Below are positions 47,769 to 58,022 of a stretch of 64,000 bases of DNA, piece after piece. The notes beneath the pieces were generated by a model. The model made no database searches and was not told the DNA's origin. It worked only from the letters and a program-made list of their open reading frames with translations. The stretch's first letter is position 1. Every line of letters begins with the position of its first letter. The translations under genes and the position numbers were made by a program. This DNA is from Tepidanaerobacter syntrophicus (lineage in GTDB: Bacteria > Bacillota > Thermosediminibacteria > Thermosediminibacterales > Tepidanaerobacteraceae): NCBI RefSeq assembly GCF_001485475.2, contig NZ_DF977001.1:124001-188000 (forward strand), given 5' to 3'.

Positions 47769-49061
47769 TTAAAATCCTCCTATACCAGCTAAAAGTCGTC
47801 CTATTCCATTCGATATCATTCCTATCCAGCAAAAATCAGGATCAACTACTGTTACACTTTGTGCCGCTAAAATAGAACTGCAACATACAAAATAAAAATA
47901 AGGTAAAATTATAAATAATACACCTTGTAGTGCTCCAGCAGCTATCGCACCTTTAACTCCACCTGTTGAGTTTCCGAAAACTCCTCCAGTGCCACCCATG
48001 AAGAAGAATTCTATCATTGGGGGAACAACAGCTACGCCAACAAGATAACCAAATATAACAGAAGTAAGAATACCCGCAATTGTAGCAGATATAAAACCAA
48101 TTAGAACTGCATTTGGCGCATATGGAAAAACAACAGGGCAATCAAGCGCCGGAACAGCATTGGGAACAACTTTAGAGGCTATTCCTTCAAATGCAACTAA
48201 AATTTCTGCTATCATCATTCTTACGCCTTGCAAAAGTATTGTAAGACCAGCACCAAAGGTTATGCCTTGAATTAAAATAAAAACAACTATATTTTGTGTT
48301 ACTTTAAGTTCTGTAGCAACATAAGATGTACCCGCAAAAGCTACACATATTGCAAAAAGAGCAACAATAACTAATGTAGTTGCACAAACAACTTCTTTTG
48401 CAAAACCAAGTGCTTTTGGAAGTTTAATATCTTCTGTGCTCACCATTTTATCACTTTTAAATAATTTTCCAACTTGCCCACCGAGCCAATAGCCAGTAGC
48501 TCCAAAGTGTCCCATTGCAAGAGGCTGCCCACCTGTTATGTTTCTCATAAAATTATTATTTATTGCCGGAAGAACCACATATGCTATACCAGCTAATATT
48601 GAGCCAATTATGGCAACGGGCATACCTGTGATCCCTGCCGCTGCAAAGCCTACGGTTATTGCAGAGGCCGCATAGAGAAAATGATGTCCTGCAAGGAATA
48701 TATATTTAAGAGGGGTGAGTCTGGCAAGTATTAAATTTACTATAAAAGCCCCTACAATAATATAGGCAACAGTCGAACCATAATTTGTGGTTGCAATATT
48801 AACTACAGATGTAGTCATGGGAACAATTCCTTGCATATTGAAAGCTTCTTTTATTAAAGGCGATAAATAATTTGAAATTACGCCCGACATAACGCCTGCA
48901 CCAGTACTAAGAATAATAACTCCCATAATAGTCTTAAGAGTGCCTGTAATTACCTGATCTGATGATTTTTTTTGCGCAAGAAGACCTATCAGAACAACTA
49001 AACCGATAAGTATTGCTGAATTTCCAAGGAAGTCATTTATTAAGCTCCATAAAAAACTCAT
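47769..49061 (-). CDS. PTS EIIC component, ascorbate/SgaT-UlaA family
   Basis: Membrane permease of 430 aa, about ten to twelve hydrophobic helices. Family segments include GLLAQKKSSDQVITGTLKTIMG, VAYIIVGAFIVNLILARLTPLKYIFLAGHH and FFMGGTGGVFGNSTGGVKGA. UlaA imports L-ascorbate in E. coli, but this family is broad and the substrate here is probably another sugar acid or polyol. It is the last gene of the cluster; EIIB is encoded 209 bp upstream. Confidence 0.92.
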   Translation of the reverse strand: MSFLWSLINDFLGNSAILIGLVVLIGLLAQKKSSDQVITGTLKTIMGVIILSTGAGVMSGVISNYLSPLIKEAFNMQGIVPMTTSVVNIATTNYGSTVAYIIVGAFIVNLILARLTPLKYIFLAGHHFLYAASAITVGFAAAGITGMPVAIIGSILAGIAYVVLPAINNNFMRNITGGQPLAMGHFGATGYWLGGQVGKLFKSDKMVSTEDIKLPKALGFAKEVVCATTLVIVALFAICVAFAGTSYVATELKVTQNIVVFILIQGITFGAGLTILLQGVRMMIAEILVAFEGIASKVVPNAVPALDCPVVFPYAPNAVLIGFISATIAGILTSVIFGYLVGVAVVPPMIEFFFMGGTGGVFGNSTGGVKGAIAAGALQGVLFIILPYFYFVCCSSILAAQSVTVVDPDFCWIGMISNGIGRLLAGIGGF

Positions 49062-49200
49062 TCATAATCCTCCTTCTAAATTTTAAGGCTTTGCAAATCT
49101 TGTTTTTAAAACCGAAATTGTGGATAAAGATTTTTGAAATATTACAGTGATTGTGATATAATTTATTTAATTATTTTAAACTGACTATAATCCTTTAATG

Positions 49201-49239
49201 GCTTCACTCTTTATAATAAAATGTAAACAAGAGCGAAGC
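49201..49239 (-). other. Stem-loop between EIIB and EIIC genes
   Basis: GCTTCGCTCTT and AAGAGTGAAGC (11 pairs, one G-U) with a 17-base loop, in an otherwise AT-rich 209-bp spacer. No T run follows, so it is likelier a processing or stability element than a terminator. Confidence 0.45.
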
Positions 49240-49270
49240 TTCTTTCTTTATATCTGAGTTTTGCCGTGAA

Positions 49271-49570
49271 TTACAGTTTCCCCATTTGCTTTAAGCAAGT
49301 AATAATTTTTGATTTTATTTCATTTTTGTCTACAAAATTACTAACTGGAATTACTTTAAATTGTTTGTCTGCAGGTAGAGCTTTTTTTAAAACGTCAGCT
49401 AATTCAGTAGAAGTAACAACCATGTCAAATGGCGTAGATTTAGCAGTTCCAATATCCGCAACATTTATCGTGTAATCTTTAATACCTAATTCATCAAGGA
49501 TTTTGCCTACTGTAACTCTAAGAATTACGCTGGAGCCAATGCCCAAACCACAAACTGTTAGCACATTCAT
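49271..49570 (-). CDS. PTS EIIB component, ascorbate/lactose-type fold
   Basis: 99 aa cytoplasmic phosphocarrier. The N-terminal MNVLTVCGLGIGSSVILRV holds the phosphocysteine in the CGLGIGSS loop, typical of the SgaB/UlaB family. Pairs with the EIIC gene. No gene for a stand-alone EIIA occurs in the cluster; the regulator at 54304-56427 carries one. Confidence 0.92.
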   Translation of the reverse strand: MNVLTVCGLGIGSSVILRVTVGKILDELGIKDYTINVADIGTAKSTPFDMVVTSTELADVLKKALPADKQFKVIPVSNFVDKNEIKSKIITCLKQMGKL

Positions 49571-49770
49571 TTATACCCCTCCAAATACTCGCACGTAAAT
49601 GCTAAGAAAATATGAAAGCCTGAATAATTTCTTCCTAGTTTACAAAATTCCTTTTCCGCTTCTATTCTTGTTTTTTAAATTATATCTGCTTTTTTTATTC
49701 CATATCCCGCCTTCTTCCTTCTTAAATTAAGTCCAATTGAAACCTAGATTTGCATCAATAGTTAAATATT

Positions 49771-50640
49771 TTATAAAGTTTTTTCATCAACTTTTTCCAA
49801 GCACTCGTGCAGAGCTTCTTTCCAATTGCGGATATTCTTATCAAATATGGTTTCATAAACTAATGTTGATAATGTTGTATTAGCTGGCCGCGGAGCCATT
49901 CTCTTCATATCTTGTATTGTCTTAGGGATTAAGATATTTTCATATTGCAATCCTAATGTTTTTGCGATCTCAACGGCAAATTCATACCGGCTTGCTGTTC
50001 CCTTGTTACCTAAATGGTATAAGCCGTATGCATCACTTTTAATAACTTTTTCAATCATAAAAGCTAAATCTTTTACATACGTAGGATTATCTTTTTGATC
50101 GCATGCTAAAATCATTGGCATATTAGTTTTAAGGGCTTTAACTATCTTCAAAATATAATTTCTATCAGGATGGCCATCTATTCCGTACAGATAAGGAACG
50201 CGTAAAATAAAGCACGGAATACCAGAGGCTTTTACCTCCTCTTCAGATTTTAGTTTACTTTTGCCATAAACATTAATAGGATTTACTTCATCAAACTCAG
50301 TGTATGCGTTTTCCTTTTTACCATCAAATACTGAATTTGAGCTAATATATGCAAATATTGATTTTGCCTTTCTAGCAGCATTTAATAAATTCCTCGTTCC
50401 TAGAGTATTGACTAAGTATGTTTGCTCAGGATTTTCTTCGCATATGTCCAAATCTCTCATTGCGGCAGCATGTATAATTAAATGTGGTTTAATACGGACA
50501 ATTGTTTCAGTTATCGATGAAAAATCTAGAATATTTATATCTTTAGAACCTTTTAAAGAAAACACTTCATCACACTTTGAAAAATGTTCAGCAAGCTCAG
50601 AACCTAATAATCCCGTTGCACCACTTATCACGATTTTCAA
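49771..50640 (-). CDS. RmlD-like sugar nucleotide/dTDP-4-dehydrorhamnose reductase family protein
   Basis: 289 aa short-chain dehydrogenase of the extended RmlD type. It shows the NAD(P) fold MKIVISGATGLLGSELAEHF, VNTLGTRNLLNAARKAKSIFAYISSNSVFDG and the catalytic pair in NVYGKSKLKSEEEV (Tyr-x3-Lys). No other rhamnose genes are near, so a role in the catabolic cluster on a keto sugar or sugar acid is more likely. Overlaps the end of the cyclase gene by 4 bp (ATGA). Confidence 0.85.
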   Translation of the reverse strand: MKIVISGATGLLGSELAEHFSKCDEVFSLKGSKDINILDFSSITETIVRIKPHLIIHAAAMRDLDICEENPEQTYLVNTLGTRNLLNAARKAKSIFAYISSNSVFDGKKENAYTEFDEVNPINVYGKSKLKSEEEVKASGIPCFILRVPYLYGIDGHPDRNYILKIVKALKTNMPMILACDQKDNPTYVKDLAFMIEKVIKSDAYGLYHLGNKGTASRYEFAVEIAKTLGLQYENILIPKTIQDMKRMAPRPANTTLSTLVYETIFDKNIRNWKEALHECLEKVDEKTL

Positions 50641-51278
50641 TTTGCATTCTCCTTTTCTAGCAAAATAGCTCTAGCCGGAGAACCTTCAGCATTTTTAATA
50701 AGCAATGGTAGGCAAATAAACTCGAACACTCCCGAGGTTACATTTTCGAAGTTTAAACCTTCTACTATCCAAACTTCATTTTTTAATAGAGCCTCATGAA
50801 TTTTATATTTAGTATTTTTACTATCCACGCTAAAGTTATCAGTTCCTAAAGCTTTCACACCGTGTCGAATAAAAAAATCAGTAGCTGTTAAATCAAAGTA
50901 ATCAAAATTACGATTATATCGATTTTTCCCAAATTTAAAAAGAAGAATTCTATTACCTTTGTAATATTTTTCCAAAAATTCTTTTGTTACTGTGCAAGGA
51001 TAAGGAATCTCTATAACTTCTGCAATTCCTAAAAGGTTTTGAAGTGGCATTTGATCTATGCTTTTGCCATTCTTTATAAAATGTAAAGGAGCATCCACAT
51101 GGGTTCCGACATGGCTTTCCATTGTAATCCGAGACATATTTGCGCGATCCTCATTGCTTATTGTTCTTATCCACTGAAGCTTAAATCCTTCTAAACTTGG
51201 ATATTTATCCATCTCATTATATAATGGCGAACTAATATCTATAATTTTAGTTCCTTTTAGTAAATCTTGTTCACTCAT
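50637..51278 (-). CDS. Cyclase family protein (kynurenine formamidase-like)
   Basis: 213 aa metal-dependent hydrolase. The signature ESHVGTHVDAPLHFIKNGKSI (H-x-G-T-H-x-D-x-P-x-H) gives the zinc ligands, and GTDNFSVDS lies further on. In the family it opens amides or lactone-like rings; in a sugar-acid operon a lactonase role is a reasonable guess. ATG 51278 has GTGAGG upstream; the frame opens five codons earlier. Confidence 0.87.
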   Translation of the reverse strand: MSEQDLLKGTKIIDISSPLYNEMDKYPSLEGFKLQWIRTISNEDRANMSRITMESHVGTHVDAPLHFIKNGKSIDQMPLQNLLGIAEVIEIPYPCTVTKEFLEKYYKGNRILLFKFGKNRYNRNFDYFDLTATDFFIRHGVKALGTDNFSVDSKNTKYKIHEALLKNEVWIVEGLNFENVTSGVFEFICLPLLIKNAEGSPARAILLEKENAN

Positions 51279-51308
51279 TAAAATTATCCTCACTTTTTTA
51301 CTAAGTTC

Positions 51309-52340
51309 TTATCTACTTTCAAAGGCTGCATTCAAGATATTTTCATCAATTTCTAATCCCTTTTTTATAGCTTTTTCGCGATTCATTGCCTCTATTTCTC
51401 CAGGGAGATAGATTGTATCAAAACCAGGTCGCGGCTTTGAAGCTTTAATTAAATTAATTAGTTCATTGACTTTCTGATAATAAGTCTCTAGTTCCAAAAA
51501 ACTCTCTAAAGAAACGCTTATAATTGTTAAACCTGCATTTTGGCTTTTAGTGGTATCCTTGTGGACAGAAGTTACATAATGTGAAAAACCTGAATTGTTC
51601 AATATTCCTGCAATTACATCAACAATTATTGCTAAGCCAAATCCTTTTGGACCTCCTAACGGGGTTAAAACCCCATTAATTGCTTTAGAAGGATCATCAG
51701 TTGGATAACCGTTTTCGTCAATCGCCCACTCTGGATTGATTTTCTCATTAAGTTCTTTCGCACGATATATTTTAGCCTTAGCCACGCTACTTGTTGCCAT
51801 ATCTAATATAATTGGGATATTTTTGGTAGGAATGCTTACTGAAATAGGGTTTGTCCCAAGAACTGCTTCCATTCCTCCATAGGGAGCTACTGTTGGATTA
51901 GCATTTACCAGCATTATCCCAATAAGCCCGGCATGCGCGATTTTTTCTGTATAATAAGCAAGCATTCCACAGTGATTTGAATTACGGACACCAATCCAAC
52001 TTAATGAATACTTCCTTGCTTTTTCTATAGCAATTTTTGTCGCCATTTCCCCTGCTACTTGGCCAAAACCACCATTAGCATCAATAAGAGTAATAAAATC
52101 CTTTTCTTTAATTATTGTCGGTTCAACTTTTATATTTATTCCACCATCTTTAATACGTCTGAGATATGCGGGAAGCATATTTATCCCATGTGATTTTACC
52201 CCACGCATTTCAGCTTCTACAATTGTATCAGCTACTATTTTAGCATCTTTTTGTTTAACACCGTATTTCATTAAAATTTCTAGGATTTTTTGCTGTAATT
52301 CATCTGGGGCAATTATAATCTTCCCATTTTCGTGCTGCAT
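51309..52340 (-). CDS. Ldh family (YlbC/YiaK-type) 2-oxoacid dehydrogenase
   Basis: 343 aa NAD(P)-dependent enzyme of the malate/L-lactate dehydrogenase-2 family, distinct from Rossmann LDH. It shows ADTIVEAEMRGVKSHGINMLPAYLRRI, VRNSNHCGMLAYYTEKIAHAG (catalytic His) and LGTNPISVSIPTKN, PLGGPKGFGLAIIVDVI. YiaK, 2,3-diketogulonate reductase, belongs here, as do ureidoglycolate and sulfolactate dehydrogenases. The link with Ula-type PTS genes makes a sugar-acid substrate plausible. Confidence 0.9.
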   Translation of the reverse strand: MQHENGKIIIAPDELQQKILEILMKYGVKQKDAKIVADTIVEAEMRGVKSHGINMLPAYLRRIKDGGINIKVEPTIIKEKDFITLIDANGGFGQVAGEMATKIAIEKARKYSLSWIGVRNSNHCGMLAYYTEKIAHAGLIGIMLVNANPTVAPYGGMEAVLGTNPISVSIPTKNIPIILDMATSSVAKAKIYRAKELNEKINPEWAIDENGYPTDDPSKAINGVLTPLGGPKGFGLAIIVDVIAGILNNSGFSHYVTSVHKDTTKSQNAGLTIISVSLESFLELETYYQKVNELINLIKASKPRPGFDTIYLPGEIEAMNREKAIKKGLEIDENILNAAFESR

Positions 52341-52380
52341 CTATTTCACTTCCTTAAATAATACGATAATACGTAATTTG

Positions 52381-53310
52381 TCAGGCATTAGTATTTCTTA
52401 AGCAATCACTAACTATTTCTATGCACTTTTTATCCATTTTACGTAGAGTTTCTTCTTCACAAGCTGCCATATGAGGAGTAGCAACAACATTCTTTAAGTG
52501 AATCAATGGGTTATTTTTAGGAGGCTCTTCTAAAAATACATCTACTGCAGCTCCTCTTATTTTTCCAGAAACTAAGGCTTCGTATAAGGCTTCTTCATTA
52601 ACAATTCCGCCTCGAGCTATATTTAAGAGATAAGCAGAATTTTTCATCAATGAAATTTCCCTTTTATCAATTATGTTTCTTGTTCCGCTTGTTAATGGGA
52701 TATGAATAGTCACAAAATCTGATGTCTTTAATAAATATTCCAACGTTACATAATTGATATCATCTTCTAAAGACCATGTAATATCAGGATAAACATCATA
52801 AACTTGAACTAGCATTTGTAAGCCCTTGCACAATTTAGCTACTTTTTTTCCTATATTGCCGGTTCCAATTATCCCTACGACTTTGCCGCTAACCCGTGTA
52901 CCCATTTCTTTAAAGAAATTTCCGTTTTGCAAATTTAAATATCCTTGTGGTATTTTGCGTGCTATTGCAAATATCATTCCAATAGTAAATTCTGCAACTG
53001 CATCAGAATTAATATTTGGCATATTTTTTACGATTATACCCTTCTTTTGGGCGTAATTTATATCTATATTATCCGTACCAGTACCGAATTTAACTATACA
53101 TTTCAACTTGTTCATTCGATCAATTATAATGGGTGTAACCTTGCTTGTTCCAACTATTAAACCGTCAATTTCATCTAAAATTTCATCATTGGTTTCTTCT
53201 AAATTTAAAAAATAAGGTTTTAAGTTGTTGGAATAAAACTCTTTCTCTAAAACTTCTTTATTTTGGCCATATCCAAATGAATTTGAAGAAATCAAAACAT
53301 TATACATCAT
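52381..53310 (-). CDS. D-isomer-specific 2-hydroxyacid dehydrogenase
   Basis: 309 aa, SerA/hydroxypyruvate reductase-like. NAD fold VGIIGTGNIGKKVAKLCKG; catalytic residues in NIARGGIVNEEALYEAL (Arg is in the preceding fold, Glu in FLEEPPKNNP) and the His of VATPHMAACEEET. No C-terminal ACT domain, so not full-length SerA. Probably interconverts a 2-oxo and a 2-hydroxy acid in this pathway. ATG 53310 behind AGGG. Confidence 0.9.
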   Translation of the reverse strand: MMYNVLISSNSFGYGQNKEVLEKEFYSNNLKPYFLNLEETNDEILDEIDGLIVGTSKVTPIIIDRMNKLKCIVKFGTGTDNIDINYAQKKGIIVKNMPNINSDAVAEFTIGMIFAIARKIPQGYLNLQNGNFFKEMGTRVSGKVVGIIGTGNIGKKVAKLCKGLQMLVQVYDVYPDITWSLEDDINYVTLEYLLKTSDFVTIHIPLTSGTRNIIDKREISLMKNSAYLLNIARGGIVNEEALYEALVSGKIRGAAVDVFLEEPPKNNPLIHLKNVVATPHMAACEEETLRKMDKKCIEIVSDCLRNTNA

Positions 53311-53330
53311 TTTTCTTTGCCCTGTTAAAT

Positions 53331-54218
53331 CTATAATAATTTCAGTTCTTCAAGAGATGATTTAACTTTTACCTTTAGTTCTTCAGATATTGGCAAAAAT
53401 GGTTTTCGCGGATATCCTGAATCAATGCCTCTCATTTCTAATATCGCATGCATTACCGGAACAGTCGGACCAAGTTTGGTAACTGAACGAAGTTTTAGAA
53501 CAAGTTCTTGAGTTTTTTTGGCCTCTTCTTTTTTGCCATTAATATATTCCAAGTACATTTTATTTAGCAATTCAGGAAAAATATTCCCTAAGCCTGTTAC
53601 TGCTCCAATGGCCCCTGCTTCAAAAGCTGCGTAGAAGATTGCTTCCGTTCCTATTATTACATTAAAATCCTGATAATCTTCCACTGCTAGTTTATAATTA
53701 TAGTAATTTACTAAATCGAAGGAGCTATCTTTTATTCCTCTTAATCCATAATCTGCAAGCTTTTTCAAGACTTCTGGTTTAATTGGATTGCCCGAAATGC
53801 TTGGGTTATTATACACAAACACAGGTATATTTACTGCATCAATCAAGCACCGAAAATGTTCGAAAATAGAATCATCGGTTAGAGGATTATAATAAGGTGC
53901 TATAGCTCCTACAGCGTCTGCTCCAATTGATTCCGCATGTTTGGCAAGTTCAACAGTGGTATTGGTATCGGCGGTTCCTACATGAATAATAACAGGTACT
54001 CGCCCATTGACATATTCAATGATGAGTTCAGCAGCTTTTTTTCTCTCTTGGATACTCATTAATGGACCAGAACCATAAGTCCCTACTGGATATAATCCTT
54101 GAACATAAGGCACTACGAAGTCTATTAGTCTCTTCAGTCCGTCTTCATATATTTCTCCCGTTTCAGTAAAGGGAGTCATTAATGGCGGGATGATGCCTTT
54201 AAAATCAATAGCTTTCAT
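53331..54218 (-). CDS. Dihydrodipicolinate synthase/N-acetylneuraminate lyase family aldolase
   Basis: 295 aa TIM-barrel class I aldolase. The Schiff-base lysine is in LRGIKDSSFDLVNY and the tyrosine in VFVYNNPSISGNP. The substrate-binding loop reads GTYGSGPLMS where DapA and NanA have G-T/S-T-G-E, so it is probably neither; 2-keto-3-deoxy sugar-acid aldolases vary here. It would release pyruvate. ATG 54218 behind GGAGG; first structural gene after the regulator. Confidence 0.9.
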   Translation of the reverse strand: MKAIDFKGIIPPLMTPFTETGEIYEDGLKRLIDFVVPYVQGLYPVGTYGSGPLMSIQERKKAAELIIEYVNGRVPVIIHVGTADTNTTVELAKHAESIGADAVGAIAPYYNPLTDDSIFEHFRCLIDAVNIPVFVYNNPSISGNPIKPEVLKKLADYGLRGIKDSSFDLVNYYNYKLAVEDYQDFNVIIGTEAIFYAAFEAGAIGAVTGLGNIFPELLNKMYLEYINGKKEEAKKTQELVLKLRSVTKLGPTVPVMHAILEMRGIDSGYPRKPFLPISEELKVKVKSSLEELKLL

Positions 54219-54303
54219 TTTATTACCTCCATAAAAGTTTAATATAATTTTTGAAGTTAACACAATAGTTAAAATTAATCTATCTTAATATTAATTTTTT
54301 TAA

Positions 54304-56427
54304 CTAGCTCTCTAGTATTTGCAAAACTTCTTTCACATCTGTTGCTAATGTAATTTTATTAACGTTTTCCTCATCACTTAAAACATCCATTAATTGTGAT
54401 ATTGCTTTTAAGTGAGTTTCATGACTTATGGCTCCGATCGTTATAACCAATCTCACAGGATCATTAGCTGCATTGCCAAACTCCACCGGCTCTTTTAATG
54501 TCACGAGGCTCATACAAACTTTTTTCACTCCATCTTCCGGGCGGGCGTGAGGCATTGCTATACCGGGAGCAATGACGATATAGGGACCAAGTTCTTTGAC
54601 GTTTTTTATCATTGCATCAACATACCTGGGTTCTACAAAACCTTCTCTTACTAAAACCTCACCTCCTTTTCTGATTGCCTCTTCCCAATCGCTTGCTTCG
54701 ACATTCAGTTCTATTGTTTTTTCTGTTAATAAATCTTTTAACACTGGCTGGGCAACTCCCTTCGAGCTGTTATAACTTGCAAGATTTAAAAAACTTGATA
54801 ATTCTCTTGCTAATTCCTGCTGATTTTTTATTATGCAGTATTTATCTATAATCTTGAGAATTTCTTCCAATTGGTTTTGATTGTTTGTATAAGCGGATAT
54901 ATTCGGCTGAATCTTTGACAAAAGCCGGTATATTCTTTCTATATCTTTTTCCGGAAGCAGTGGATTCACTACGATTTCAGGTATATCTTTGCTGCCAGTA
55001 GGAATTGTTGAAATTATTAAATCTACTCTATCATTTTTGCTGGTTTCTTCTATCTGGCGGCTTGCAATCGTGTTTACAACATTTATGTTGCTAAATTGAT
55101 TTTTAATTCTCGAAGACAAAAGTTTTGCTGTGCCTACGCCTGTTCCGCAAACCACAACTGCGTTGTATATATTGCTGCATGTCGCTTTATTTCTCTCAAC
55201 TGCTGCACCTATATGAATTGCAATAAAACCAGCTTCTTCATCAGGAATCTTTTTGCCTATATAGTTTTCCAATGGTTTTAGAGATAGTTGAACCGCCTTA
55301 AATATTTCCGGATAATTGCGTTTAATTTCGTGCAAAATTGGATTTTTAAGAGGTAGATTATGTCTGAGGCGATAAATAGTAGGTTCTAAGTGTTTTAAGA
55401 GGCCGTTGTGCAGCTCTGTATCGATTGAAAAATCTTTATTTAACTTTTCTCCTATAGTTTTAATAATCTCATCTGTTAAAATTTGCAGCTGCAACCACTC
55501 TTTGCTTGAAAATATATCAGCTTCTGTAACTTTTCCGCCTAACAGATGTATTGTGATGTAGCCGATTTCATCATCAGGAATCTTAATATTGTAGCTTTCT
55601 TCTAAAAATGCAACCATGCTCGAAGCTACTGCAAATTCTTTGGTAAATTTGAGCCGTGACAATTCTTCTTCCGGCATTACTATATTTTTGTTAAGTTGTA
55701 TACGTTTTATTGCAAGCGCAAGATGAATTACCAATCCGGAATATGCATTATCGGCAAATGTTGTTTTTAACTGCTTTTCAGCTATTTGTATCGACTTTTC
55801 TATAGGCAAAATATCAAGGTCTTGAAACAACTTTTTTATTTGCTTGTCTGCTACTATATTTATTCTTCGATGAATTGGTGTTTTTATAAGGTTTAGCGCT
55901 TTCTCGACTTCCATATTTTCTGATAAAAGGGAAATCACGGCTCTTCTTAAGTCTTGTTCATATCCTTTTACTTTAAGGCCAAAATGCGGCACAGATTCAA
56001 GTTGAAGATTATGATGTGCAAGCCATGTTCTTACTGGCTTTAAATCATTTGAAACGGTGCCTCGACTTACCGACAAAACATCTGCGATTTCATCGATTGT
56101 TATATAATCTTTTGCCTGAAAAAGTTCTGTAAGTATCATAGTCTGTCGTTCTTTAGGAGTTAATACATAGTTATAGCTTGTAATTTCTTCAAGTAATGTC
56201 ATAATTTTTTGTTTTTGAGAAGGCATAGGTGCATATTCGATTCCGGAATTAGGTTTTCTGATTAATTGTGGCAAATCGTTGGCTTTTAAAAAGTCATCAA
56301 TTTTGTCTAAATCATATCTAATTGTTCTTGAAGATACTTTGAACTTTTTAGCAAGCTCTGAAATTTTAATCGGTTTTTCTGATGATATAATTTGACCAAG
56401 CAGCTGCGCGCATCGCTCATCTATCAA
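54304..56427 (-). CDS. PRD-containing transcriptional activator with EIIB and EIIA domains (MtlR/LicR-like)
   Basis: About 707 aa. Two N-terminal helix-turn-helix units (ISELAKKFKVSSRTIRYDLDKI and ITIDEIADVLSVSRGTVSNDL), PRD1 (~170-290, YSGLVIHLALAIKRIQ), PRD2 (~300-400, EEAGFIAIHIGAAVERNK), a Gat-type EIIB domain (VVCGTGVGTAKLLSSRI, phosphocysteine) and a C-terminal EIIA domain (IAPGIAMPHARPEDG, phospho-His). I place the start at TTG 56427, because the ATG at 56454 overlaps a TATAAT box and GGGAG precedes the TTG. It sits at the head of the PTS cluster and probably activates it when unphosphorylated at PRD/EIIB. Confidence 0.9.
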   Translation of the reverse strand: MIDERCAQLLGQIISSEKPIKISELAKKFKVSSRTIRYDLDKIDDFLKANDLPQLIRKPNSGIEYAPMPSQKQKIMTLLEEITSYNYVLTPKERQTMILTELFQAKDYITIDEIADVLSVSRGTVSNDLKPVRTWLAHHNLQLESVPHFGLKVKGYEQDLRRAVISLLSENMEVEKALNLIKTPIHRRINIVADKQIKKLFQDLDILPIEKSIQIAEKQLKTTFADNAYSGLVIHLALAIKRIQLNKNIVMPEEELSRLKFTKEFAVASSMVAFLEESYNIKIPDDEIGYITIHLLGGKVTEADIFSSKEWLQLQILTDEIIKTIGEKLNKDFSIDTELHNGLLKHLEPTIYRLRHNLPLKNPILHEIKRNYPEIFKAVQLSLKPLENYIGKKIPDEEAGFIAIHIGAAVERNKATCSNIYNAVVVCGTGVGTAKLLSSRIKNQFSNINVVNTIASRQIEETSKNDRVDLIISTIPTGSKDIPEIVVNPLLPEKDIERIYRLLSKIQPNISAYTNNQNQLEEILKIIDKYCIIKNQQELARELSSFLNLASYNSSKGVAQPVLKDLLTEKTIELNVEASDWEEAIRKGGEVLVREGFVEPRYVDAMIKNVKELGPYIVIAPGIAMPHARPEDGVKKVCMSLVTLKEPVEFGNAANDPVRLVITIGAISHETHLKAISQLMDVLSDEENVNKITLATDVKEVLQILES

Positions 56428-56591
56428 ATTATAACAACTCCCTTCATTATGCATTATATAGCAGCCCTATTGTTATGAAAAGTCTAATATCTTTCAAAGC
56501 AATTGTGGCAATTGTATACTATACTTACACTAAATGCTGAGGCAGCATCTGTCAAATTAAAAATTGTATAATAGCAATTGAGTACAAAAAT

Positions 56592-56636
56592 AAAAGCCTG
56601 GAATCGGCTATTTTTTATATAGGATTCCGGGCTTAT
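56592..56636 (-). terminator. Terminator after larA
   Basis: AAGCCTGGAATC / GATTCCGGGCTT (12 pairs, one G-U), 17-base loop, followed by TTATTTTTG on the minus strand, 41 bp beyond the stop. Confidence 0.8.
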
Positions 56637-56674
56637 CATTTTCGAATGTAGGAGAAATAAAATTATATAGCAGC

Positions 56675-57952
56675 TCAGTCGTTCTCCACTATCACTGAAA
56701 CACCATCTGGAATTACTGTAATTTTTGCATTATTCCCTTTGAGTTTTAGCGCCTGCTTTATAGCGTCTTCTACTGTGTAAGCATGAATCATATGGCAATC
56801 CTCAATCATTTTAGGATCACACATATCTGTTACAAATATGACGGTATGCTTATCAAGAATCCTTGATAAAATTTGAAATTCCCACTGATCAGGTGCCGTA
56901 TCTTCCGGAGGCACCTTTGCTAATCTATCCAAGATTTCCCTGGGGTTTTTTGCATTTTTCATGTTGTTATAAAAAGACTCTCCACCATGACCATCATTAC
57001 ATGCGGCAACCATTATAATTACTCCGTTCTCGCGGCATGTCGCCTCTGCTGCAGTCATCCCTTTTACGGATTGATAAAGATTTTGGTCTAAAGGATACCC
57101 TCCGTTTGTAGAAATAACAATATCTGCAGGCTTTGCCTTTACGCTCGAAAGTTGTTTTACGAATTTGCACCCTTCCTCATGGGCTAGAATGCTGTCACCA
57201 CTAAAGGCATTTATGATTTTTTTATCTTTATCTATTACAACATTTAATATGAAGGCAAGATTAGCTGCTTTTGCTGCAAATAGCATATCTTTATGTATTG
57301 GATTATTTTCCAGGTTGCCTGTTCTCGCATAAGGACTTGCAATAAATTTTGCGCAATGATTTTCCATGACAGATGTTGCACCTGCCACACCAGGAAGAAT
57401 GCTCTTTCTTCCCCCTGAAAAGCCGGCAAAAAAATGTGGTTCAATAAAGCCCTCAGATATAACTAATTCTGATTTGCAAACCATTTTGTTTAAATATAGC
57501 CTGCCCCCTGAAGGCAAAAGGCCAACATATTCTAGCTGATCATTATCAAAAGCCATATGGTTTATAATGGTTTCATTTTTAACTATTTCTTCTCCGAATT
57601 TATTTATCATTTCTTCTTTCGTTGTCGGCCTGTGAAAACCAGTTGCAATCATAATTTTTATATCTATATTCGGATTTGCCCTTCTAATTGTATCCAATAA
57701 TATAGGCATTGTAATTTTGCTCGGCACGGGTCGTGTATGATCACTGGTTATTATTAAAACTTCTTTCTTTCCTTTTACCAATTCTTCCAGCGTTGGACTT
57801 CCTATAGGATTCGAAAGCGCATTTCTTACTATTTCATCTTGTGGCAAAGATTGTTTATATTCGTCAGCTTTTGAAGTCAATATCCCTAAAAAATTTTCGT
57901 CAGGGATGTTAACATCCAAAAAAGTTTTGTGGTATGGGAGTCTTACCTTCAT
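56675..57952 (-). CDS. larA: Nickel-dependent lactate racemase family protein (LarA-like)
   Basis: 425 aa. LarA uses a nickel-pincer nucleotide to racemise or epimerise 2-hydroxy acids by hydride transfer. The key residues are present: IITSDHTRPVPSK (Asp, Arg), IATGFHRPTTKEEM (His), GFIEPHFFAGFSGGRKSILPG (His and the cofactor Lys) and MENHCAKF (nickel His). The cofactor genes larB, larC and larE are not in the window. Beside a sugar-acid PTS cluster it may act on a longer hydroxy acid than lactate. Own promoter with a palindromic operator. Confidence 0.92.
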   Translation of the reverse strand: MKVRLPYHKTFLDVNIPDENFLGILTSKADEYKQSLPQDEIVRNALSNPIGSPTLEELVKGKKEVLIITSDHTRPVPSKITMPILLDTIRRANPNIDIKIMIATGFHRPTTKEEMINKFGEEIVKNETIINHMAFDNDQLEYVGLLPSGGRLYLNKMVCKSELVISEGFIEPHFFAGFSGGRKSILPGVAGATSVMENHCAKFIASPYARTGNLENNPIHKDMLFAAKAANLAFILNVVIDKDKKIINAFSGDSILAHEEGCKFVKQLSSVKAKPADIVISTNGGYPLDQNLYQSVKGMTAAEATCRENGVIIMVAACNDGHGGESFYNNMKNAKNPREILDRLAKVPPEDTAPDQWEFQILSRILDKHTVIFVTDMCDPKMIEDCHMIHAYTVEDAIKQALKLKGNNAKITVIPDGVSVIVEND

Positions 57953-57993
57953 TTTAAAGTCCTCCTATCAAATTATTAATATTAATAAACCGG

Positions 57994-58022
57994 TATAATG
58001 GTATGGTGGTCTTACCATTATA
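57994..58022 (-). promoter_or_regulatory. larA promoter region with perfect 10-bp inverted repeat
   Basis: TATAATGGTA (57994-58003) and TACCATTATA (58013-58022), 9-base spacer, 42 bp before the larA ATG. The repeat contains the -10 box. TGGTA...TACCA resembles operators of FadR/LldR-type GntR regulators. Confidence 0.6.

Follow-up and report, generated by a model that had tools for sequence, protein, structure and literature searches.

A transcriptional regulator of Tepidanaerobacter syntrophicus is probably also a working part of the transporter that it controls. The window analysed here is a stretch of 64,000 nucleotides (NCBI RefSeq assembly GCF_001485475.2, contig NZ_DF977001.1, positions 124,001 to 188,000; coordinates below count from its first base) in a genome of 2.43 Mb that is 99.95% complete. 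At 47769-56454 on the - strand it contains an operon that encodes EIIC and EIIB of a phosphotransferase system (PTS) of the Ula (ascorbate) type. The sole EIIA of the operon is the C-terminal domain of its first gene product, a PRD regulator. We consider it likely that this domain passes phosphate to the transporter, i.e., that it is the transporter's EIIA, and that the cassettes behind the regulator are exchangeable. The genes, in operon order, and the pertinent parts of the regulator are listed below; L051-L054 are related operons described further on, and assignments are by Pfam/NCBIfam where no other source is given.

54304-56454, - strand: PRD regulator, 716 residues, domain order HTH (helix-turn-helix)-HTH-PRD-PRD-EIIB-EIIA; orthologue in T. 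acetatoxydans 76% identical
54919-55167, - strand: EIIB domain of the regulator, residues 430-512, with Cys436 (PF02302)
54307-54741, - strand: EIIA domain of the regulator, residues 572-716, with phospho-His636 in GPYIVIAPGIAMPHARPEDG (PF00359, 136.9 bits; NCBIfam ascorbate IIA, 139 bits)
54304-54393, - strand: last 90 bases of the regulator gene, the cassette-swap junction (nucleotide profiles, sub-domain test)
53331-54263 (start probably ~54218), - strand: lyase of the DapA/KDG (2-keto-3-deoxygluconate)-aldolase family, 57-59% to its counterpart in L051-L054
52381-53310, - strand: D-2-hydroxyacid dehydrogenase, PGDH-like, 39-42% in L051-L054
51309-52340, - strand: Ldh_2-family dehydrogenase, 46-49% in L051-L054
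50637-51293, - strand: cyclase-family metal hydrolase, kynurenine-formamidase-like, possible lactonase (Pfam/NCBIfam, nearest solved structures)
49771-50640, - strand: RmlD-like SDR (short-chain dehydrogenase/reductase) reductase
49271-49570, - strand: transporter EIIB, 99 residues, motif TVCGLGIGSS (PF02302), 54-62% in L051 and L054
47769-49061, - strand: EIIC (EIIC-GAT), UlaA family (PF03611, 357 bits; NCBIfam ascorbate IIC NF006919, 434.9 against a cut-off of 380)

The regulator has its HTH part at residues 11-175 and its PRDs at 206-310 and 325-425, followed by EIIB and EIIA as listed. It keeps the PRD histidines His244, His303, His355 and His414, the EIIB Cys436 and the EIIA His636, and thus is of the MtlR/LicR type in domain order and in conserved residues alike. 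Regulators of this type act beside a separate transport EIIA. The EIIA of the window's regulator, in contrast, is the only candidate of its type. The first-pass annotation of the window had reported a Ula-type EIIB and EIIC with no separate EIIA, and a regulator ending in an EIIA with phospho-His and carrying an EIIB domain of its own; both descriptions hold, and all genes lie at the positions stated. A hidden separate EIIA gene in the window is ruled out, since a six-frame search with PF00359 matches the regulator's EIIA alone there. Among solved structures, this domain comes closest to EIIA components, one of them the EIIA-Mtl of entry 2few.

A dedicated EIIA elsewhere in the genome, named at the first pass as the finding that would speak against a transport role of the regulator, was looked for. 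The six-frame search yields seven PF00359 domains, one in the window and six elsewhere. Four of them lie in regulator-like or other multidomain proteins, the window's included, and three are free class-2 EIIA genes, each adjoining its own EIIB. A second EIIC-GAT system (C5:345266) comes with an EIIB and an EIIA of its own. A profile built from free Ula-operon EIIAs gives 192 bits for the domain of the regulator and 92, 79 and 59 for the three free genes. Judged by these scores, the latter are of types other than Ula, there is no dedicated Ula-type EIIA elsewhere, and the regulator's domain is the sole ascorbate-type EIIA of the genome.

In four related genomes the sole PF00359 domain is that of the regulator, and it stands beside UlaB and UlaA. 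One of these genomes is a single closed contig (G044); the others (G120, G084 and G085) are drafts, 97, 97 and 92% complete, respectively. All four encode EI. EIIA-Lac was not found in any of them, and EIIA-Glc is present only in G084. The EIIA-Man of G044 lies in a Dak1-Dak2-EI neighbourhood and that of G085 adjoins EI. In G120 no EIIA of class 2, Lac, Glc or Man was found except the regulator's (the sorbitol type was not searched). Here a single contig of 11.5 kb (L139, 64-8557) encodes the regulator with its EIIA, an aldolase II, EIIB, EIIC, PTE, HAD, EI and HPr, and this relay is possibly the only sugar PTS of the organism. If the transporters of these four genomes work, the regulator is, from the gene inventory, the plain candidate for their EIIA. 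A fifth genome, G374, was dropped from the set, as no EIIB was found beside its EIIC. With a single class-2 EIIA each, the closed genome and G120 lend themselves to a test.

How such a system would operate we infer from the MtlR/LicR-type regulators. Phosphate would move from EI via HPr to His636 of the regulator, from there to the 99-residue EIIB and finally to the substrate at EIIC. The phosphate that feeds transport would also be read by the PRDs and the EIIB domain of the regulator. In the presence of substrate, phosphate would drain to the transporter and the regulator would be active; in its absence, the regulator's EIIB domain would stay phosphorylated and the regulator inactive. Because the regulator gene heads the operon, each induction would also make more EIIA. 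A cassette of EIIB, EIIC and enzymes behind such a regulator would be exchangeable and would require no EIIA gene. If this holds, a single protein would switch the genes and would also be a link that the transport chain under its control cannot do without, so that flux would be sensed without a messenger.

The history of the operon points in the same direction. A scan of 84,980 species' genomes for relatives of the EIIC retrieved as nearest ones those of two Treponema metagenome-assembled genomes (MAGs) and one Spirochaetaceae MAG (75%) and of one Erysipelotrichaceae MAG (63%). Their operons (L051-L054) have all eight gene types of the window's operon: beside a PRD regulator, these are EIIC, EIIB, cyclase, RmlD, 2-hydroxyacid dehydrogenase, Ldh_2 and DapA. 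What sets them apart is a free EIIA gene; in addition, their regulator belongs to another clade, and its EIIA domain is more divergent. Their EIIA gene sits directly after that of the 2-hydroxyacid dehydrogenase, where the window has a gap of 40 bases. The Treponema operon L051 (648-11321) is a complete portable PTS, with EIIA, EIIB, EIIC, HPr, EI, regulator and enzymes in one operon.

In the EIIC tree the window falls within the Treponema/Erysipelotrichaceae group. In the regulator tree, calculated with EIIA left out, it is sister to T. acetatoxydans and far from the regulators of L051-L054. The T. acetatoxydans locus has the nearest relative of the window's regulator, 76% identical to it, and the same neighbours, larA (95%), PfpI (93%) and YwlG (84%); behind the regulator, however, stand a different EIIB and EIIC (42 and 37%) and other enzymes (PTE, creatininase, SIS and CutC families). 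Since the EIIC groups with Treponema and Erysipelotrichaceae and the regulator with T. acetatoxydans at the same locus, the operon is a case of a native regulator that now holds a foreign transporter cassette lacking its EIIA gene.

Such exchanges are not confined to Tepidanaerobacter. In seven species of genus g90, the same five upstream genes and a regulator of 81-95% whole-length identity precede five different transporters, with EIICs only 32-47% identical between transporter types. Seven species of genus g183 have a common upstream flank (for G360 and G414 the sequence compared includes just its last gene) and regulators that are 75-96% alike, followed by six different transporters. A kept regulator with a changed transporter is also seen in G007 as compared with G011 and G005. 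Over the conserved loci, the N-terminal part of the regulator is 81-98% identical, the EIIC 31-46%, and the enzymes differ as well. One might think of fast drift of the EIIC. Where the cassette is the same, however, the EIIC is conserved as much as or more than the regulator, and reaches 79-80% even across genera (G133 and G249), so that 31-46% within a genus means replacement.

Several cassettes recur behind different regulators. The one shared by G133 and G249 is a UlaG-type ascorbate cassette (UlaG lactonase, 608 bits against a cut-off of 306), a TktN-TktC-FBA-SIS cassette is present in G103, G415, G407 and G408, and a SIS cassette in G410 and four genomes of the window's order. Another swapped cassette, in G007, has a pyruvate-formate-lyase-like glycyl-radical enzyme between regulator and EIIB (L048, 6980-9424). 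None of the swapped cassettes compared contains an EIIA gene. G414 seemed to have a free EIIA, but this is the domain of its regulator, cut off by a stop codon; the assembly is 6% contaminated, and the domain was not counted as a separate gene.

The swap has a defined border. In swapped pairs, nucleotide identity is high along the regulator gene and drops within its last 90-180 bases. Across this junction it falls from 87-90% to 61 and 40% in G011-G007, from 92 to 70 and 46% in G103-G344, and from 93 to 81 and 44% in G408-G410. Between the window and T. acetatoxydans it is 70-87%, then 58% in the last 90 bases, then 51%, with 33-51% downstream of the gene. Permutation of labels within loci gave a corresponding picture. 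Only the EIIA domain tracks the cassette (excess 0.151, p 0.007, the pairs being few and related, so that this and the following p-value are guides); HTH, PRD1, PRD2 and the regulator's EIIB did not significantly follow it. Within the domain it is the last ~25 residues that do so, with an identity of 0.68 for the same cassette versus 0.39 for different ones (excess 0.42, permutation p 0.0002), whereas the rest shows 0.74 versus 0.86. Partial Mantel tests gave small effects (r 0.17-0.22) and a response of PRD2 to EIIB as well; we relied on the permutation instead. The idea that the whole EIIA domain travels with the cassette was weakened: between genera, the EIIA is no more similar in pairs that share a cassette than in pairs that do not.

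Cassettes may recombine by homology at the conserved core of the EIIA. There is perhaps an even chance that the arrangement can be generalised, with the regulator and its only EIIA as a fixed socket into which cassettes for different substrates plug by recombination at the EIIA-coding 3' end. One switch-plus-phosphate-donor would then serve whichever transporter stands behind the regulator, and a newly arrived catabolic operon would have its control and its energy supply at once.

A match to the regulator at E ≤ 1e-60 is found in 60 of 398 genomes of the phylum, and the order regulator-EIIB-EIIC without EIIA is common among relatives. Forty-six Ula-linked regulators were compared, 33 without and 13 with a Ula-type EIIA gene nearby. 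On a profile of free EIIAs only (15 sequences, including two fructose-type EIIAs from the vicinity), the EIIA domains of the 33 score 149-192 bits, with one exception at 83, and those of the 13 score 90-152. The motif is GPYIVIAPGIAMPHARPEDG in the former and degraded, in forms such as KSNIVIVPHIAMPHAQ, in the latter. The Cys of the regulator's EIIB domain is present in all 46. A relative of the regulator in G418 (L169, 5044-10043) has lost the EIIA domain; it lies beside an amidohydrolase, an SFCGS protein and DUF4312/DUF4311, with no Ula EIIB or EIIC nearby. Its loss is consistent with retention of the EIIA only where a transporter needs it.

Several observations weigh against the transport role. 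The contrast in domain scores is not significant once kinship is considered, because the two states, with and without a free EIIA, changed only two to three times independently on the regulator tree. The phospho-His of the EIIA is kept in 46 of 46 regulators, whether or not a separate EIIA gene exists; an intact phospho-His is, therefore, not diagnostic of a transport role, and the regulators with a separate EIIA tell us that the domain can be purely regulatory. The tail of the EIIA, in tracking the cassette, marks the junction and is no demonstration of contact with EIIB; we read it as a junction and not as co-evolution because the tracking is limited to the last ~25 residues. Nor is the T. 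syntrophicus genome short of other donors: beyond its three free class-2 EIIAs it encodes five EIIA-Lac, one EIIA-Glc and 12 EIIA-Man matches, several within large regulators. In Bacillus subtilis, finally, cross-talk by sharing of EIIAs is documented for glucose-class transporters (PMC6148471).

These points feed the alternative already raised at the first pass, that a free EIIA of another PTS energises the transporter in trans and the regulator's EIIA only senses. Some EIIA-less systems may indeed borrow: the Ula operon of G234 (L145, 9441-13141) has no EIIA gene and a regulator with a poorly conserved EIIA (the 83-bit exception), and is a candidate for true borrowing. For the window, we regard this as unlikely. 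The free EIIAs of the genome each have their own EIIB and are of other types, G044, G085 and G120 offer no free class-2, Lac or Glc EIIA for borrowing, and a merely sensing domain would have no need to remain transport-like. The first pass had left the choice between the regulator and an EIIA from elsewhere open; the genomes with a single class-2 EIIA, the EIIA gene missing from the cassette and the transport-like domain now favour the regulator, and in a genome so rich in EIIAs borrowing keeps some weight. The same richness and the known cross-talk could also mean that both donors phosphorylate EIIB, the regulator domain being helpful but dispensable here; as no free Ula-type EIIA is present, this appears quite improbable. 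Hardly credible is a transporter that is not a group translocator at all but a facilitator, a sensor or a decayed system in which EIIA is unneeded. The lack of a dedicated EIIA gene would fit. An EIIB with its Cys motif is, however, kept beside EIIC in the window and in related operons, three lineages conserve the cassette together with catabolic enzymes, and G120 and the Treponema MAG of L051 encode HPr and EI beside the operon.

That a regulator might energise a PTS is not a new thought. The pneumococcal ula2 operon (SP2129-SP2131; ulaR2-ulaB2-ulaA2-tktN-tktC) resembles the window in its Ula-type EIIB and EIIC without an EIIA gene and in its upstream regulator with PRDs, EIIB and EIIA; the window has the same order on one strand. 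It differs in that ula2 has transketolase halves, which are missing from the window with its other enzymes and its distant host; a cassette of this TktN-TktC type is the one seen in G103, G415, G407 and G408. UlaR2 activates the pneumococcal operon with ascorbate (PMC4324149), and Bidossi et al. (2012; PMC3302838) found it "tempting to suggest" that the EIIA of the pneumococcal regulator energises the PTS. The idea is thus already published as a suggestion for pneumococcus, based on the gene content of one species; an experimental test was not found in the open-access papers searched, where only this suggestion turned up. What appears to be new, as far as checked, are the genomes with a single class-2 EIIA, the EIIA gene missing from a transferred cassette, and the repeated cassette exchange with its junction at the EIIA end. 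If the regulator is the transporter's EIIA, the EIIA-less Ula-type operons first noted in pneumococcus are explained and the suggestion of 2012 becomes a testable rule; swapping would be a simple route to new sugar-acid pathways that are already under control.

With the E. coli-type ula system (UlaABC, TC 4.A.7) the window shares the UlaA-family EIIC and a UlaB-like EIIB. Unlike that system, it has no UlaC gene and, by Pfam/NCBIfam, no homologues of UlaD, E, F or G, and its EIIB scores 31 against a cut-off of 138 on the NCBIfam ascorbate IIB model. The UlaG lactonase belongs to a different cassette (G133), which stands behind a regulator of the same clade as the window's.

The enzymes give hints on the substrate. 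The cyclase-family hydrolase has kynurenine formamidases as its nearest solved relatives. Relatives of the Ldh_2 protein are sulfolactate, malate/lactate and ureidoglycolate dehydrogenases, YiaK being more distant, and the DapA-family lyase lies near KDG aldolases. No named pathway was obtained from the matched enzymes of the operon, just as the first-pass annotation had stated; the set is not a one-off, however, but is conserved in Spirochaetota and Erysipelotrichaceae. The enzymes suggest an ascorbate-like sugar-acid lactone as substrate, which is the least certain part of our proposal. The lactone would be phosphorylated on uptake and its ring opened by the cyclase-family hydrolase; the product would pass through the dehydrogenases to the DapA-family lyase, which would yield pyruvate and a second aldehyde.

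Some features remain to be listed:

56675-57952: LarA, neighbour gene
56585-56640, - strand: terminator-like hairpin between larA and the regulator gene (-16.5 kcal/mol, z -4.2)
49200-49240, - strand: 11-pair hairpin in the EIIB-EIIC spacer (z -3.3)

LarA had been counted at the first pass with the enzyme set. It is a neighbour and not a pathway member, because the terminator-like hairpin separates its gene from that of the regulator and because T. acetatoxydans, with an otherwise different operon, still has larA next to the regulator. For the DapA-family gene, the frame listed above begins with GTG at 54263; an ATG about 45 bases inside is the more likely start (MKAIDFKG...). A search for Rfam families gave no match in the operon. 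The EIIB-EIIC spacer measures 209 bases in the window and about 50 in related operons, and the strong 11-pair hairpin lies inside it. On the 5' side of the regulator gene (56500-56590, - strand) CAATTG boxes are repeated (CAATTGCTATTATACAATT, ATACAATTGCCACAATTGC), which are possible operator sites.

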